Of a stretch of DNA of 64,000 nucleotides, positions 29,066 to 64,000 are shown one piece after another. The notes beneath the pieces were generated by a model that was given only the letters and a program-made list of their open reading frames with translations, was not told the DNA's origin and made no database searches. Both the position numbers and the translations under genes were made by a program. The stretch's first letter is position 1. Each line of letters starts with the position of its first letter. Source of the DNA: Conchocele bisecta (lineage: Eukaryota; Mollusca; Bivalvia; Lucinida; Thyasiridae); contig CM055277.1 in the NCBI GenBank assembly GCA_029237695.1, positions 37,482,242 to 37,546,241 of the forward strand, read 5' to 3'.

Positions 29066-29784
29066 GTCACCGCTATAACACAATGGTACAGTCACGGTTG
29101 ACTTGATCAATACCACATACGCAGCTACATGTGATGCTAGTTATGTGTACTGACCTGTGCTGTATCTGAGGTATGTATAAGGTCCTAGTGGTACAATCAC
29201 GGTTGACATGATCAATACCACATACGCAGCTACATGTGATGCTAGTTATGTGTACTGACCTGGGCTGTATCTGAGGTATCTATAAGGTCCTAGTGGTACA
29301 GTCACGGTTGACTTGATCAATACCACATACACAGCTACATGTGATGCTAATTATGTGTACTGACCTGGGCTGTATCTGAGGTATCTATAAGGTCCTAGTG
29401 ATACAGTCAAGGTTGACTTGATCAATACCACATACGCAGCTACATGTGATGCTAGTTATGTGTACTGACCTGGGCTGTATCTGAGGTATCTATAAGGTCC
29501 TAGTGGTACAGTCAAGGTTGACTTGATCAATACCACATACGCAGCTACATGTGATGCTAATTATGTGTACTGACCTGGGCTGTATCTGAGGTATCTATAA
29601 GGTCCTAGTGGTACAGTCACGGTTGACTTGATCAATACCACATACGCAGCTACATGTGATGCTAGTTATGTGTACTGACCTGGGCTGTATCTGAGGTATC
29701 TATAAGGTCCTAGTGGTACAGTCACGGTTGACTTGATCAATACCACATACGCAGCTACATGTGATGCTAGTTATGTGTACTGAC
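29066..29784. repeat. 105-bp tandem repeat carrying HIP1 splice-donor copies
   Basis: The landmark TGTACTGACCTG recurs at exactly 105-bp spacing, with TGACCTG at 29151, 29256, 29361, 29466, 29571, 29676 and 29781. The last is the real HIP1 exon end and donor. Each unit holds, in HIP1 sense, a 30-nt copy of the exon tail, the GTCAGTACAC donor, and an intron piece with TGATCAATACCACATACGC on the plus strand. The units differ by only a few bases, so the array is young. Confidence 0.95.
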
Positions 29785-29928
29785 CTGGGGTGGATCTGAG
29801 GTGTCTATAAGGTCCTCTACCGAGTCTGTGTCTGGGTCACGGTCGGGCTCAGACTCGGGTTCCGGCACCACGACAACCGGCGTCACATGCTTACTGAAGT
29901 CCGACTGGATCAGGAAGTTGGGAGGATC
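29785..29928 (-). CDS. HIP1: HIP1 exon (PPNFL and acidic linker)
   Basis: This 144-bp exon is phase 0 at both ends, with acceptor CTCTTGCAG and donor GTCAGT. It encodes 48 residues: DPPNFL, then KHVTPVVVVPEP, then a stretch rich in Asp and Glu, ending DLIDTSDPPQ. PPNFL and the PVVV-P-E segment mark the ANTH-to-linker boundary in HIP1. In known HIP1 proteins the linker carries clathrin and AP2 motifs; DLIDTS only weakly resembles a clathrin box. The last 30 bases are repeated six more times in the adjoining 105-bp array. Confidence 0.94.
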
Positions 29929-30110: not shown

Positions 30111-30210
30111 TATCGGCATATAAACTTGGAAAAGTCGCGGGAATACTGGACGAAAGCCGGAAGGCCTCGTCCAGTATTCCCGCGACTTTTCCAAGTTTAT
30201 ATCCCCGATA
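30111..30210. repeat. 100-bp near-perfect palindrome
   Basis: Arms of about 45 bp (TATAAACTTGGAAAAGTCGC, then GGGAATACTGGACGA) are followed by their complement around GCCGGAAGGC. A nearly identical palindrome lies at 58626-58723, and the flanks share GAATGAATGGC and TGTGGAATTTATC, so this is a fold-back MITE. Confidence 0.92.
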
Positions 30211-30214
30211 TTGT

Positions 30215-33200
30215 GCATGTACAATCTAGGTCTATGTAACTGTAGTGCATGTACAATCTAGGTATATGCAACTGTAGTTCATGTACAATCTAGTATATGT
30301 AATGTAGATGTACAATCTAGGTCTAGTAGTGTCGTCAAGACATCTAGGTCTATGTAACTGTAGTGCATGTACAATCTAGGTCTATGTAACTGTAGTGCAT
30401 GTACAATCTAGGTCTATGTAAGTGTAGTGCATGTACAATCTAGGTCTATGTAAGTGTAGTGCATGTACAATCTAGGTCTAGGTAACTTTAGTGCATGTAC
30501 AATCTAGGTATATGCAACTGTAGTGCATGTACAATGTAGGTCTATGTAACTGTAGTGCATGTACAATCTAGGTCTATGTAAGTGTAGTGCATGTACAATC
30601 TAGGTCTATGTAAGTGTAGTGCATGTACAATCTAGGTCTATGTAACTGTAGTGCATGTACAATCTAGGTCTATGTAACTGTAGTGCATGTACAATCTAGG
30701 TCTATGTAACTGTAGTGCATGTACAATCTAGGTCTATGTAAATGTAGTGCATGTACAATCTAGGTTTATGTAACTGTAGTGCATGTACAATCTAGGTCTA
30801 TGTAACTGTAGTGCATGTACAATCTACTTACAGCTGGTGTATATGAAACTGTAGTGCATGTACAATCTACTTACAGCTTATGTCTATGTAACTGTAGTGC
30901 ATGTACAATCTACATACAGCTGGTGTCTATGTAACTGTAGTGCATGTACAATCTACTTACAGCTGGTGTCTATGTAAGTGTAGTGCATGTACAATCTACT
31001 TACAGCTGTTGTCTATGTAACTGTAGTACATGTACAATCTACATACAGCTGGTGTCTATGTAACTGTAGTGCATGTACAATCTACTTACAGCTGGTGTCT
31101 ATGTAAGTGTAGTGCATGTACAATCTACTTACAGCTGGTTGTCTATGTAAAGTGTAGTGCATGTACAATCTACTTACAGCTGGTGTCTATGTAAGTGTAG
31201 TGCATGTACAATCTACTTACAGCTGGTGTCTATGTAAGTGTAGTGCATGTACAATCTACTTACAGCTGGTGTCTATGTAAGTGTAGTGCATGTACAATCT
31301 ACTTACAGCTGGTGTCTGTAAGTTATGTAAGTGTAGTGCATGTACAATCTACTTACAGCTGATGTCTATGTAACTGTAGTGCATGTACAATCTACTTACA
31401 GCTGGTGTCTATGTAAGTGTAGTGCATGTACAATCTACTTACATCTGGTGTCTATGTAACTGTAGTGCATGTACAATCTACTTACAGCTGGTGTCTATGT
31501 AAGTGTAGCGCATGTACAATCTACTTACAGCTGATGTCTATGTAAGTGTAGTGCATGTACAATCTACTTACAGCTGGTGTCTATGTAAGTGTAGTGCATG
31601 TACAATCTACTTACAGCTGATGTCTATGTAAGTGTAGTGCATGTACAATCTACTTACAGCTGGTGTCTATGTAACTGTAGTGCATGTACAATCTACTTAC
31701 AGCTGGTAACATGATTGAGAGGTCTATCTAACTGCAGTGCATGTACAATCTACTTACAGCTGGTAACATGATTGAGAGGTCTATGTAAGTGTAGTGCATG
31801 TACAATCTAGGTCTATGTAAGTGTAGTGCATGTACAATCTAGGTCTATGTAACTGTAGTGCATGTACAATCTAGGTCTATGAGTGTAGTGCATGTACAAT
31901 CTAGGTCTATGTAACTGTAGTGCATGTACAATCTAGGTATATGCAACTGTAGTGCATGTACAATCTAGGTCTATGTAACTGTAGTGCATGTACAATCTAG
32001 GTCTATGTAAGTGCAGTGCATGTACAATCTAGGTCTATGTAAGTGTAGATTCTATGTAAGTGTAGTGCATGTACAATCTAGGTCTATGTAACTGTAGTGC
32101 ATGTACAATCTAGGTCTATGTAACTGTAGTGCATGTACAATCTAGGTCTATGTAAGTGTAGTGCATGTACAATCTAGGTATATGTAACTGTAGTGCATGT
32201 ACAATCTAGGTCTATGTAACTGTAGTGCATGTACAATCTAGGTCTATGTAACTGTAGTGCATGTACAATCTAGGTATATGCAACTGTAGTGCATGTACAA
32301 TCTAGGTCTATGCAACTGTAGTGCATGTACAATCTAGGTCTATGTAAGTGTAGTGCATGTACAATCTAGGTCTATGTAAGTGTAGTGCATGTACAATCTA
32401 GGTCTATGTAACTGTAGTGCATGTACAATCTAGGTCTATGTAACTGTAGTGCATGTACAATCTAGGTATATGCAACTGTAGTGCATGTACAATCTAGGTC
32501 TATGTAACTGTAGTGCATGTACAATCTAGGTCTATGTAACTGTAGTGCATGTACAATCTAGGGATATGCGAACTGTCAGTGCATGTACAATCTAGGTCTA
32601 TGTAACTGTAGTGCATGTACAATCTAGGTCTATGTAACTGTAGTGCATGTACAATCTAGGTCTATGTAAGTGTAGTGCATGTACAATCTAGGTCTAGTGC
32701 ATATACAATCTAGGTCTATGTAACTGTAGTGCATGTACAATCTAGGTCTTATGTAAGTAATTTAAGTTGCATGTACAATCTAGGTCCTATGTAAGTTGTA
32801 TGTGCATGTACAATCTAGGTTCATGTAAGTGTTAAGTGCAAGTACAATCTAGGTATATGTAACAAGTATACAATGAGACATCTAGGTCTAATGTCAACAG
32901 TAAAGTGCATGTACAATCTAGGTCTATGTAAAAGTAGTGCATGTACAATCTAGTCTAACGTAACTGTAAGGTGCATGTACAAAACTCTAGGTATGATGTA
33001 ATCTGTAGTGGCATGTACACAATCTAGGTCTATTGTATCTGTATGTGCATGTACTAAATCTAGGTATATGTAACCTGTAGTGCATGTAAAATCTAGGTCT
33101 GATGTAACTGTAGTGCATGTAAAATCTAGGTCTAATGTAACTGTAGTGCATGTACAATCTAGGTCTATGTAAATGTCAGTGCAGTTACACAATCTAGGTT

Positions 33201-36200
33201 CTAAGTTTAACTGTAGTGCAATGTTACAAGCTAGGTATATGTAACTGTTAGTGCATGTACAATCTAGGTCTATGTTAACATGTAGTGCATGTACAATCTA
33301 GGTTTAAAGTGTGAACTGTAGTGCCATGTACAAAATCTAGGTCTATGTAACTGTAGTGCATGTAACAATCCTAGGTATAAAGTGTTAACTGTAGTGCATG
33401 GTACAAAAATCTAGGTCTATGTAACTGTAGTGCAAGTTTACAATCTAGGTCTAATGTAAACTGGTAGTGCATGTAACAATCTAGGTCTATGTAACTGAAG
33501 TGCATGTACAATCTAGGTCTATGTAACTGTATGGCATGTACAATCTAGTCAAGTGCGATGGTACAATAATAGGTCTAATGAACTGTAGTGCATGTACGAA
33601 TAAATGGTAATAGGTCAAGTGTATGCAATGTACAATCGAAGTCTCGTAGTGTATGCATGTACAATCTAGGTATAGGTAACTGTAGTGCATGTAAAATCTA
33701 AGGTCTTTGTAAGTGTAGTGCATGTACAATCTAGGTCATGTAAGTGCAGTGCATGTACAATATAGGTCTATGTAAGAACTTAGTCAATGTACAATCTAGG
33801 TCTACTGTAAGTGTAGTGCATGTACAATCTAGGTATATGTAACTGTAGTGCATGTACAATCTAGTTACAATGAAACTGTAAGGTTCATTACAATCTAGAA
33901 TAATGCAACTGTAGTGCATGTACAATCTAGGTATAATGCAACTGTAAGGGTACATGTACAAAAATCTAGGATCTATGTAAGTGTAGTGGCATGTACAATA
34001 TAGGTCTATGTAAGTGTAGAGCAAGAACAATCTAAGGGTCTATGTAACTGTTGTGCCATAGTAACAAAAATCTAGGTCTATGTAACTGGTAGTGCTGTAC
34101 AAATCTAGGTCCTAATGTAAACTGTATGCAATGGACAATCAAGGTCTATGAACTGTAGTGCATGTTACAATCTAGTATATGTAACTTGTAGTGCATGTAC
34201 AGATCTAGGTCTATGTTAAACTGTAGTGCATGTACAATCTAGGTATGATGTTCCAACAGATATGCATATGAACAATCTAGGTCTAATTGTAAATGCAACT
34301 GTTAATGCATGTACAATCTAGGTCTATGTAAACTGTAGTGCATGTACAATCTAGGTCTATGTAACTGTATGCATGTACAATCAGGTCTATGTAAAGCATG
34401 TACAATCAGAAGGGTATATGTAACTGTAGTGCATGTACAATCTAGGTCTATGTAACAGTAGTGCATGTACAATCTAGGTATAATGCAACTGTAGTGCATG
34501 TACAATCTAGTCTATGCCAACTGTAGTGCATGTACAATCTAGGTCTATGTAACTGTAGTGCATGTACAATCTAGGTCTATGAATAACTAGTAGTGCATGT
34601 ACAATCTAGAATAATGTAACTGTAGTGCATGTACAATCTAGTCTATGAAACAGTAATAGTGCATGTACAATCAGGGTCTATGTAACTGTAGTGCAAGTAC
34701 AAGCTAGGACCCTATGTAATGTATGCATGTACAATCTAGGTCCTATTGTTAACTGTAGTGCATGTACAATCTAGGTAACTATGTAACTGTAGTACATGTA
34801 CAATCTAGGGTCTATGTAACTGTAGTGCATACAATCTAGGTATAATGTAGTTATGCATTTACAATCTAGTTCTATGCAACTGATAGTGCATGTACAATCT
34901 AGGTCTATGTAAAGTGTAGTGCATGACAATCTAGGTCTATGTAACTGTAAGTACATGTACAATATCAGGTCTGGAATGTAACTGTAGTGCATGTACAATC
35001 TAGTAACTATGTCAACTGTTAGTGCATGTAACAATCTAGGTCGATGTTAACTTAGTGCATGTACAATCTAGGTCTATGTAATGTAGTGCATGTACAATCT
35101 AGTTCTATGTAACTGGATGCAAGTACACTCTAGTCTATGTAACTGTAGTGCATGTACAATCTAGGTCTATTAAGTGTATGCATGTACAATCTAGGTCTAT
35201 GTAACTGTAGTGCTGTACATCTAGGTCTATGTCTGTAGTGCTGTCAATCTAGTCTATGTAAGTGTAGTGCATTTACAACAGTCTAGGTAAACTTGATGCA
35301 GTACAACTAGGTCTATGTAAGTGAAAGTGCATGTACAATCTAGGTCTAGTAACGTAAGTGCAAGTACATCCTAGTCTACTTAATGGTAGTACATGTACAA
35401 TCTAGCTTATGCAACTGTAGTGCAGTACAATCTAGGTCCTATGTAACTAGTAGTAACATGTACAATCTAGTCTATGTAACTGTAGTACATGGCGCATGTA
35501 CATCTATCAATCAACTGATGCCATGTACAATCCTACTACCTGGTGTCTATGTAACTGTAGTGCATGTAAAAATTCTACTTACAGCTGGTGTCTTTAACTG
35601 AAGTGCAATACAATATACTTACAGCTGGTGTCATGTAAATGTAGTGCATGGTACACGTTCTATCTATGTAACAAGCTGGTGTCTATGTAAAAAAACAGTA
35701 GTGCATGTACAATCTACTTACAGCTGGTGTCAATGTAACTGGAGTTGGCATGTACATTTACTTACAGCTGGTGTCTATGTAACTGTAGTGCATGTACAAT
35801 CTTACTTACAGCTGGTTCCCTATTTAACTGTTAGTGCATGTAACTTAGATTACAGCAGTGTCTATGTTAACTGAAGTGCATGTACAAGCTACTACAGTCT
35901 ATGTAACGTAGTGGCATGTACAATCTACTTACAGCTGGATGTCTATGTAACGTATGCAGTACAATCTAACTTACAGCTGTTCTATGTAACTGTTATAGCA
36001 ATGTATCTACTTACAGCTGGTGTCTAAGGTAACTGTAAGTGCATGTTTACAATTCTACTTACAGCGTGCTATTAACGTAGTGCATGTACAATCCTTACTT
36101 ACAGCTGGTGTCTATGAACTGTAGTGCAAGTTCCAATCTACTTACAAGCTGGTGTCATGTACGTAGTTCATGTACAATCTACTTACAGCTGGTGTCTATG

Positions 36201-38580
36201 TAACTGAAGGTGCCATAACCAAATCTATTACAGCTGGGTTGATATGTAACTTTATGCATTGGACAATCTACTTTACAGCTGGTGTCTAAGTAATGTAAGT
36301 GCAATGTACGAATCTATGAGGTCTAATGTAACTGTAGTGCAATGTACCATCTACTTACAGCAAATGGATGTCTATGTAACTGTAGTTGTGCATGTACAAT
36401 CTACTTACAGCTGGTGTCTATGTAACTGTAGTTGCATGTACAATCTACTTTTAGGTCTATGTATTGTAGTGGCATGTTACAATCTACTGATAATCATGTA
36501 ATGTAGTGCATGTACAATCTACTTACAGCTGGTGTCTATGTAACTGTAGTAAGAACATGTACAAAATCTACTGATTAGGCTATGTAACCTGTAGTGGCAT
36601 GTACAATCTACTTACAGCTGTGTCTAATGTAACGTAAGGCATGTACAATCTAACTCTATAGTGCAATGACAGTGGTAGTCTATGTTACCAATCTACTGTG
36701 AGTCCTACATGTACAATCTACCTTACAGCTGGGTCCTATGTACTATGCAAGGTCTATGAAGTGTAGTGCATGTACCAATCCTACTTACAAGCTGGGTGTC
36801 TATGTAACTGTTAGTGCATGTACAATTCTACTGGATAAGTCTATTGTAATGTAAGTGCATGTACAAAATTGATAGGCTAATGTAATTATGCATTACAATC
36901 TACCTACAGCTGGTGTTATGTAACTATGCAATGTACATCAGTCTTAACTGGATAGTCTAAGGTATGTAAAGGTCATAATAGTGCAATGTACAATCTATTG
37001 ATAGGTCTATGTAACTGTAGTGCATGTAACAATCACAAGTAATCTATGTTTACTGTAGTGCATGGTACAAAATCAACTGATAGTCCTATGTAAGGAATGC
37101 ATGTACAATCTACTTGATAGCTGGTGTACTAATCTATGCTGGTCTAGTGCATGTACAAACTACTGATAGGTCTATGTAACTGTAGTGCCAAGTACAATCT
37201 ACTGATAGGTACTATGGTAAGTGTAGTGCATGTACAATCTACTGATAGGTCTATGTAACCCTGTAGTGCATGTACAATCTAACTTACATGCTGGGTAAGG
37301 TCTATGTAACATGTAATTACATGTACTAATCTACTGATGAGGTCTAGTAAGTGTAGTGCATGTACAATCTACTTACAGCTGGTGTCTATGTAACTGTAGT
37401 GCATGTACAATCTACTGATAGGTCTATGTAAGTGTAGTGCATGTACAATCTACTGATAGGTCTATGTAACTGTAGTGCATGTACAATCTACTTACAGCTG
37501 GTGTCTATGTAACTGTAGTGCATGTACAATCTACTGATAGGTCTATGTAACTGTAGTGCATGTACAATCTACTGATAGGTCTATGTAACTGTAGTGCATG
37601 TACAATCTACTTACAGCTGGTGTCTATGTAACTGTAGTGCATGTACAATCTCCTACAGCTGGTGTCTAAGTAACTGTATGCAGTACAATCTACTGTAGGT
37701 CTATGACTGTATGCATGTACAATCTACTGATGGTCTATGTAAGTGTAGTCATGCAATCTACTACAGGTCTATGTAACTGTAGTGCATGTACAATCTAACT
37801 GATAGGTCATGTAATGTATGCATGTACAATCTACTGATAGGTCTATGTAACTGTAGTGCATGTACAATCTACTGATAGGTCTATGTAACTGTAGTGCATG
37901 TACAATCTACTGATAGGTCTATGTAACTGTAGTGCTAAATCTATGATAGGTTCAATGTAACTGTAGTGCATACAATCTACTGATAGGTCTATGTAACTGT
38001 AGTGCATGTACAATCTACTGATAGGTCTATGTAACTGTAGTGCATGTACAATCTACTGATAGGTCTATGTAAGTGTAGTGCAGTACAATCTACTGATAGT
38101 CTATGAACTGTAGTGCATGTAACAATCTACTGATAGGTTCTATGTAAGTGTAGTGCATGTACAATCTACTGATAGGTCTATGTAACTGTAGTGCATGTAC
38201 AATCTACTGATAGGTCTATGTAACTGTAGTGCATGTACAATCTACTGATAGGTCTATGTAACTGTAGTGCATGTACAATCTACTGATAGGTCTATGTAAC
38301 TGTAGTGCATGTACAATCTACTGATAGGTCTATGTAACTGTAGTGCATGTACAATCTACTTACAGCTGGTGTCTATGTAACTGTAGTGCATGTACATGAT
38401 TAATAGGTCTATGTAACTGTAGTGCATGTACAATCTACTTACAGCTGGTGTCTATGTAACTGTAGTGCATGTACAATCTACTGATAGGTCTATGTAAGTG
38501 TAGTGCATGTACAATCTACTTACAGCTGGTAACATGATTGACAGGTCTATGTAAGTGTAGTGCATGTACAATCTACTTAC
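30215..38580. repeat. 8.4-kb minisatellite seeded from a HIP1 splice donor
   Basis: More than 200 units share GTAGTGCATGTACAATCTA. Three unit types occur: about 31 bp with GGTCTATGTAACT, about 43 bp with CTTACAGCTGGTGTCTATG, and one with CTGATAGGTCTATG. The 43-bp type dominates 30820-31790 and 35520-36650 and is mixed with the third type up to 38580. CTTACAGCTGG read on the HIP1 strand is CCAGCT-GTAAG, the exon end and donor at 38581. From about 32680 to 37900 many units have one-base indels; the outer parts are clean. Confidence 0.97.
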
Positions 38581-38656
38581 AGCTGGTAACAATGGAACTT
38601 GGACTAGATTCTTAAAATATTGCAGATTGGAACTGTTGAAGTAGAACTGTTTTAAC
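38581..38656 (-). CDS. HIP1: HIP1 exon (end of ANTH domain, SSNLQYFK motif)
   Basis: This 76-bp exon has acceptor TCTTATTGCAG and a full-consensus donor, GTAAGT. After completing an Arg codon it encodes 25 residues with the SSNLQYFK signature and ends in PLLPA, phase 0, so that PPNFL follows in the next exon as in other HIP1 proteins. The last bases, TGTTACCAGCT, and the donor are also the seed sequence of the 8.4-kb minisatellite that starts immediately downstream. Confidence 0.94.
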
Positions 38657-58366: not shown

Positions 58367-58625
58367 CTGAAAATAAGAAAGTTACAATGAATCAAATCTG
58401 CATAAGTGACCACAGTGGTACAAACGAAGGAAATTTCAAGCATTCTGATACAGATGCTGTACCTTTTGCATCCAGTTTGGACCGACTGATTGGAGTTTTA
58501 CGTCTCTTCAACAGCATGGTCATAGTACGACAGGAATGCACATGTATTACACAAATTTCAATAGAAAACTAATTACATATTTCAAGGCGAGCCCAGGTGA
58601 TGTTATCAGGAGGCTTGATAAAAAA

Positions 58626-58723
58626 ATCGGGGTATAAACTTGGAAAAGTCGCGGGAATACTGGACGAAGGCCGGAAGGCCTCGTCCAGTATTCCCGCGAC
58701 TTTTCCAAGTTTATATCCCCGAT
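58626..58723. repeat. 98-bp near-perfect palindrome, twin of 30111-30210
   Basis: Arms ATCGGGGTATAAACTTGG, then AAAAGTCGCGGGAATACTGG, and their complement surround GGCCGGAAGGCC. The flank ATAAATTCCACAAAAAGGCC is shared in inverted orientation with the copy at 30111. Confidence 0.92.
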
Positions 58724-59064
58724 AAATTCCACAAAAAGGCCATTCATTCCTTGTAATTCCAGCATTTGAAATAAATTCATTAAGAAAATGTGTTTATTTT
58801 CCGTTTTCTTAAGAATTATTTTAACTGCGCCTCACAGTTACGGAAAGTAGTTCGGCATGGGAGTTTACTGGGATATAAATTTTGGACAGAGACTTGCTAC
58901 TGACCAATCAAATGTTAGGGAATTGTGTAAATATGTTTGTGCTGGAATTATTCAGCCAAAACTTACATATGCTTGGTACATATGTGATATCGAGTTTCAT
59001 ATCTGCCCTCATATCGACCTATAGATCTCTCAATTTAAAGCTTTCGAGCAAATATAGGAGTCTT

Positions 59065-63224: not shown

Positions 63225-64000
63225 CTGCTGCTGCTACTACTACGTATTAACTACTACTACTACTATTAACTACTAACACTACTATTGAAACTTAAACTAC
63301 TACTACTATTAACTACTTGAACTACTATTAACTAACTAACTAACTAACATTAACTACTACTAACTATTAACTACTAACACTACTATTATTAACTACTACT
63401 AACTAATTTAACTAACTACTACAAAACTACTATAACTACTACTAACTACTTAACTTAACTACGACTCACGTATTAACTAACTACTACTACTAAAATTAAC
63501 TACTAACTACTATTCACGAACTAAACTAACTACAAATAACTACTACTTACAAACTAATAACTAACTACTATACTTCAACTATAACTACTACTACTATTAA
63601 CTAACTTACTACTACTAATTCAACTACTACTACTATTAACTACTAATAACTACGATAAACTATTTAACTAACTACTACAACTTACTACTTACGTTTAAAC
63701 TACTACTACTACGCTATTAATCTACTACTACTACTATTAAACGAACATACCTACTACTATTAACTACTACTAACACTAATTACTAACTACTCACACACGA
63801 TATAACTTACTTAACTACTACTATTAACTACACTACTTAACTATTTAACTACTACTTACTATTAACTACTACTACTATAACTAACTTACTACTACCTATT
63901 AACAACTACTAACTACTATTAACCTTACTACTACTACTATAACCTACTTACAACTATTAACTACTCTAACTTAACTATTAGACTCACGTATTAACTACTA
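63225..64000. repeat. ACT-rich low-complexity repeat with many indels
   Basis: Irregular mixture of ACTACTACT and TTAACTACTA words with scattered one-base indels and occasional ACTCACGTATTAACTA islands. It looks like a long TAACTACTA-type satellite read with poor base accuracy. It continues past the window edge. Confidence 0.9.

Follow-up and report, generated by a model that had tools for sequence, protein, structure and literature searches.

Two minisatellites probably seeded by duplication across donor junctions of HIP1 in the bivalve Conchocele bisecta

HIP1 and two arrays at consecutive 5' splice sites

The window analysed here, a stretch of 64,000 nucleotides of Conchocele bisecta contig CM055277.1, carries HIP1 on its minus strand, where tblastn placed the exons of P0003 in order from 62779 to 944. 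Among the best 120 of the 1543 homologues found, the best-scoring named entries (P0004-P0009) were from bivalves (Mactra, Ruditapes, Mercenaria, Mya, Dreissena and Tegillarca), and the closest shared 71% identity, no near-identical protein being present. Two of the homologues, P0004 (Mactra antiquata) and P0045 (Bulinus truncatus), bear the source name 'histidine permease', apparently a misannotation.

The exon at 38581-38656 (minus strand), identified by translation, tblastn with P0003 and direct reading of its splice sites, lies inside a 93% identical match to P0003 residues 238-264. Positions 38655-38581 translate as LKQFYFNSSNLQYFKNLVQVPLLPA, and the exon closes with ...LVQVPLLPA, its last codons (VPLLPA) being followed by the donor GTAAGT. 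Read directly, the true 5' splice site and its flanks (38569-38592, minus strand) are TTGTTACCAGCT/GTAAGTAGATTG, with the slash at the exon/intron border, and an earlier note on this DNA described correctly both the 43-bp units and the exon end beside them, ACCAGCT/GTAAGTAGATTG. The next exon, DPPNFLIQSDF...DLIDTSDPPQ, was located by translation and tblastn at 29785-29928 (minus strand), and the intron separating the two measures 8652 bp, as the 8.6 kb given earlier had indicated.

A minisatellite of 8.4 kb (30213-38591, minus strand), defined from its TRF rows taken together, a Viterbi parse and motif counts, spans the donor junction, the last TRF row ending 11 nt within exon 38581-38656. Parsing with five unit classes yielded 228 units (133 of 32 bp, 50 of 43 bp, 37 of 38 bp, four of 57 bp and four of 36 bp), with 54 in two donor-bearing classes and 174 in classes lacking a donor. 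Exact GTAAGT was present in 44 units, all from the donor-bearing classes, compared to a mean of 1.96 on the gene strand in 200 mononucleotide shuffles of the array; the rest of the window holds 19 on the same strand. Identical 11-mers, GCTGTAAGTAG, with U1 pairing equal to that of the true donor, surround 35 of the 44 extra copies, whilst there are 31 copies of ACCAGCTGTAAGT, that at the true donor among them, and none on the opposite strand. The dozens of full-consensus donors announced in the earlier note are thus present in number, but conform to the consensus on the intron side only, the exon side reading GCT rather than CAG. One 28-base pattern taken from the unit, searched for exactly, had no match in viral_contigs. 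At its far end the array is abutted by a MITE-like, hairpin-like inverted repeat (30111-30210), a second copy of which lies at 58623-58751.

A second array, delimited by TRF and dissection at 29084-29816 (minus strand), starts inside exon 29785-29928, where its TRF row ends at 29816. In each of its 105-bp units, 30 nt copied from the end of the exon are followed by CAG/GTCAGT, with six donor copies beyond the true one, the last reading GCACAG. This array (29084-29816) was absent from the earlier note, as was a block of noisy sequence within the larger one (32740-37380).

Unit anatomy, sequence quality and origin

The 57-bp unit adjoining the exon junction (38513-38569, minus strand) contains the intron start, an 11-nt copy of the exon tail and the first downstream donor at 38523 (+57 nt), and its core, TGTTACCAGCT/GTAAGTAGATTG, matches the final 11 bases of the exon together with the start of the intron, the array thus having the exon junction itself as its first unit. 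At 31690-31803 (minus strand) lie another two 57-bp units that carry the exon tail and agree with the parse consensus except for 0 and 2 differences. Outside the noisy block the tail is thus present in three units of this length; the fourth is poor and falls inside it. The shorter classes can be read as the 57-bp unit with bases removed: 14 bp for the 43-bp unit and 25 bp for the 32-bp unit (0 mismatches each) and 19 bp for the 38-bp unit (1 mismatch), with the rare 36-bp unit giving a worse fit (3 mismatches). The earlier suggestion that the array grew out of the exon/intron junction is therefore well supported, by the exon tail in three 57-bp units, the shorter units being deletions, and the similar construction of the second array. 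The 43-bp donor unit described in the earlier note is present (50 of 228), but the 57-bp unit is the likelier seed, with most units in the donor-less classes.

We infer that the direction was from exon to array. In VPLLP, the peptide that the copied tail encodes, LP is common to homologues; since the tail is coding and LLP is conserved among HIP1 proteins, the exon is the likely source. At the second array, exon 29785-29928 keeps DTSDPPQ, as does the Ylistrum homologue P0015 (DLVDTSDPPQ), while the array copies read DTSDTAQ, which likewise argues that the exons seeded the arrays. We consider it likely that both are minisatellites of the type called 'mirages' in amphioxus, seeded by duplication across donor junctions of this molluscan HIP1, with the larger one spliced out through the proximal donor and near-neutral. 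Duplication and then expansion, presumably by slippage or unequal exchange, would have started from a 57-bp stretch with the GTAAGT donor between 11 nt of exon tail and 40 nt of intron, and internal deletions would have generated the 43-, 38- and 32-bp units, the latter two without a donor. The array would be removed with the 8.6-kb intron via the exon-proximal donor and may be close to neutral.

Sequence quality varies along the large array. Within the noisy block (32740-37379), which makes up 55% of it, only 1 of 127 units is perfect and differences number 12-17 per 100 bp, mostly indels, compared to 58 of 101 perfect units and 1.5-4.5 differences per 100 bp outside. Of the 16-mers in this block, 70% occur once in the array, the values for the blocks on either side being 12% and 21%, and 19 of the 44 extra GTAAGT copies lie inside it (25 outside). 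Abrupt edges, an excess of indels and private errors indicate that the block is probably uncorrected long-read sequence, an older degenerate block being less likely. The error load and the single 16-mers might also suggest that a large part of the array is an assembly artefact, a collapsed or padded repeat whose true size differs, yet the array ends are cleaner and both joined to unique sequence, over half of the units outside the block are perfect, and such an artefact would affect copy number rather than the existence of the array; we regard it as unlikely. Many indels were also seen in the TRF rows at 63234-63965.

The position of the arrays was compared with chance expectation. With Smith-Waterman probes, several of whose edges missed the true junction by as many as ten bases, strong copies in the next 4 kb of intron were detected for 2 of 12 donors, which scored 58 and 50 while the remaining ten stayed at or below 22. 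Strong nearby copies were detected for none of 12 acceptors (22 or less). Amongst 1000 random probes, 28.7% reached a local match score of at least 30 and 23.5% at least 40 (90th percentile 55), and the two donors are therefore not outliers by score alone. Merged arrays (period at least 10, score at least 100; n = 22, the large array counted as two) cover 18115 of 64000 bases, 28% of the window. Two overlapped donor edges where 0.39 were expected (P = 0.059 by random placement, 0.056 by circular shift), and two overlapped any exon where 3.74 were expected. The presence of two arrays at donor edges is thus borderline, barely above chance, and with P near 0.06 the coincidence alone is weak evidence; random tandem duplication combined with selection against arrays within exons could suffice.

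Downstream donors, folding and polyadenylation

Beyond the true donor of exon 38581-38656, decoy donors occur at +57, +138 and +217, then at +966 and further. Only that at +57 gives an open in-frame extension, and since a stop lies before +138, splicing at either +138 or +217 would yield a truncated protein. Pairing with the U1 5' end, computed with the sequence that we take this end to have, was at least as strong as for the true donor (-7.0 kcal/mol) at 43 array sites, and site strength consequently gives no ground for dismissing competition. Local folding predicted an unpaired probability of 0.000 for the true donor, and the first three decoys had 0.000, 0.008 and 0.001, a model result that favours neither. 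ACTTAC, the complement of GTAAGT, occurs 48 times on the gene strand of the large array and 7 times elsewhere on that strand, and follows within 40 nt of 15 of 45 array donors compared to 0 of 19 donors elsewhere on the strand. GTAAGT/ACTTAC hairpins of special stability were considered and rejected, as seven folded stretches gave z values of -0.04 to 1.63 against shuffles.

Homologous proteins continue through the exon 38581-38656 junction without insertion: none of the best 120 of the 1543 homologues, all from other species, carries one, and in the alignment 116 of these 120 have the same junction length as the window. Three Mytilus coruscus entries read PGTSKLL at the junction, and P0045, which was dropped from the alignment slice, nevertheless had an ordinary junction when inspected separately.

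These observations bear on the functional reading in the earlier note, in which the donors would act as a decoy array, competing for U1, lengthening the exon in frame by 19 codons (57 nt) or tying HIP1 splicing to repeat number. The 44 extra GTAAGT copies, with 35 in the shared 11-mer that pairs with U1 as the true donor does, and the stop-free extension opened at +57 are what such an array would offer. Set against these are the truncation expected from +138 and +217, the distance to the next donor (+966 exceeds usual exon sizes), the uninterrupted junction in all 120 listed homologues, the 174 of 228 units in classes without a donor, and hairpins no better than shuffles in the five donor-bearing stretches (z -0.04 to 1.03). 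Function as a decoy array, whether by competition, exon extension or repeat-number dependence, accordingly appears unlikely.

Alternatively, the array might form a U1-binding platform that shields a long intron from premature polyadenylation (telescripting), a role to which its density of U1-like sites would be suited (5.14 per kb, compared to 1.48 per kb for that strand when both arrays are left out). The 8652-nt intron, however, contains neither AATAAA nor ATTAAA, motifs that reach 1.1-4.4 per kb in the seven other introns longer than 2 kb, and so holds nothing of that kind to protect against. We reject this explanation as the least probable of those weighed here. With no such motif in the intron, no insertion in the 120 listed homologues and hairpins no better than shuffles, the decoy role is left unsupported, and removal of a near-neutral array through the exon-proximal donor is preferred.

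At the second array, the 30-nt copies follow an AG, keep the reading frame and contain no stop, the first ones encoding DLIDTSDTAQ, whilst read-through into the intron from exon 29785-29928 meets an immediate stop (VSTHN*). The unit anatomy (...CACTAG/30 nt/GTCAGT, phase 0, stop-free over 30 nt) would allow the copies to be spliced as tandem mini-exons repeating DLIDTSDTAQ, an incipient exon or intron gain that would accord with the mirage model of intron gain, as set out in the part of PMC3087553 consulted. However, the tract before CTAG is pyrimidine-poor by eye, the copies stand only 75 nt apart, and a repeated DLIDT was absent from the 58 homologous junctions inspected of the 120. Mini-exon splicing is therefore judged highly improbable, and we retain duplication across the donor junction as the preferred account of this array.

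Likeness to amphioxus mirages and the source exon

In the sections consulted of PMC3087553 and PMC3902484, amphioxus mirages are described as minisatellite-like duplications of exon/intron boundaries, unstable in length and a possible source of new introns, which according to the authors apparently leave regular splicing undisturbed. Amphioxus loci of this kind are Adh3, the globins BflGb6 and BflGb9, TnC and PGBD5, and unit lengths of 10-160 bp are given in PMC3087553, a range that includes the 32-57 and 105 bp of the HIP1 arrays. The HIP1 arrays, known here from the genomic sequence of one haplotype, share this anatomy: both span an exon/intron boundary, with TRF rows ending inside the exons (38591 and 29816), and their units copy the exon end with its splice signal (GTAAGT in 44 of 228 units; six extra CAG/GTCAGT). 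They differ in their molluscan host and in size, with approximately 228 units over 8.4 kb compared to six and three in the two BflGb6 haplotypes described in those sections. Most units of the large array have lost the donor, and two consecutive exons are affected, both at 5' splice sites.

The model of Rogers, as cited in the part of PMC3087553 consulted, derives intron gain from tandem duplication of AG/GT proto-splice sites. Tandem duplication of splice-signal sequence is the point of likeness, but the HIP1 copies sit within an existing intron and have introduced no new intron into the coding sequence. With ordinary intronic VNTRs, which show unit homogenisation, deletion variants and intron location, the large array shares all three traits, whereas it begins inside a coding exon and multiplies a splice donor. 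No mollusc mirage was named among the titles listed in the literature searches, which does not establish absence from print, and the one gastropod intron paper among them (PMC7931591) contained no occurrence of minisatellite, tandem repeat or mirage. Overall, the HIP1 arrays are ordinary in kind and unusual in size, pairing and, within the literature covered, phylum. The mirages in those two papers are from lancelets; a neighbouring pair in a mollusc, including a very large one, would point to donor-junction duplication as a mutation to be expected generally where animal genomes are rich in repeats. The arrays also offer a natural test of how far a spliceosome can pass over identical donors repeated dozens of times downstream, and of whether arrays of this type contribute to intron gain or alter the source exon.

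The last codon of the source exon (38581-38583) encodes Ala (GCT), where all 117 scorable homologues of the 120 have Asp or Glu. One residue class accounts for at least 95% of the homologues at 109 columns, and the window differs at five of these, one of which is probably a misplaced exon edge; the Ala is the only departure without exception among the homologues. This codon hints that the junction may not be evolving wholly neutrally, and array-to-exon conversion is possible, a single substitution being insufficient to show it. A broader proposal, that alternative splicing at the first decoy (+57 nt), with the addition of VSRLYMHYTYIDLSIMLPA, and use of the 30-nt exon copies give HIP1 isoforms in repeat-number-dependent proportions, and that flow from array to exon replaced the otherwise invariant acidic codon by Ala, seems to us improbable. 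One 43-bp unit, at 31474, reads GAT in place of GCT.
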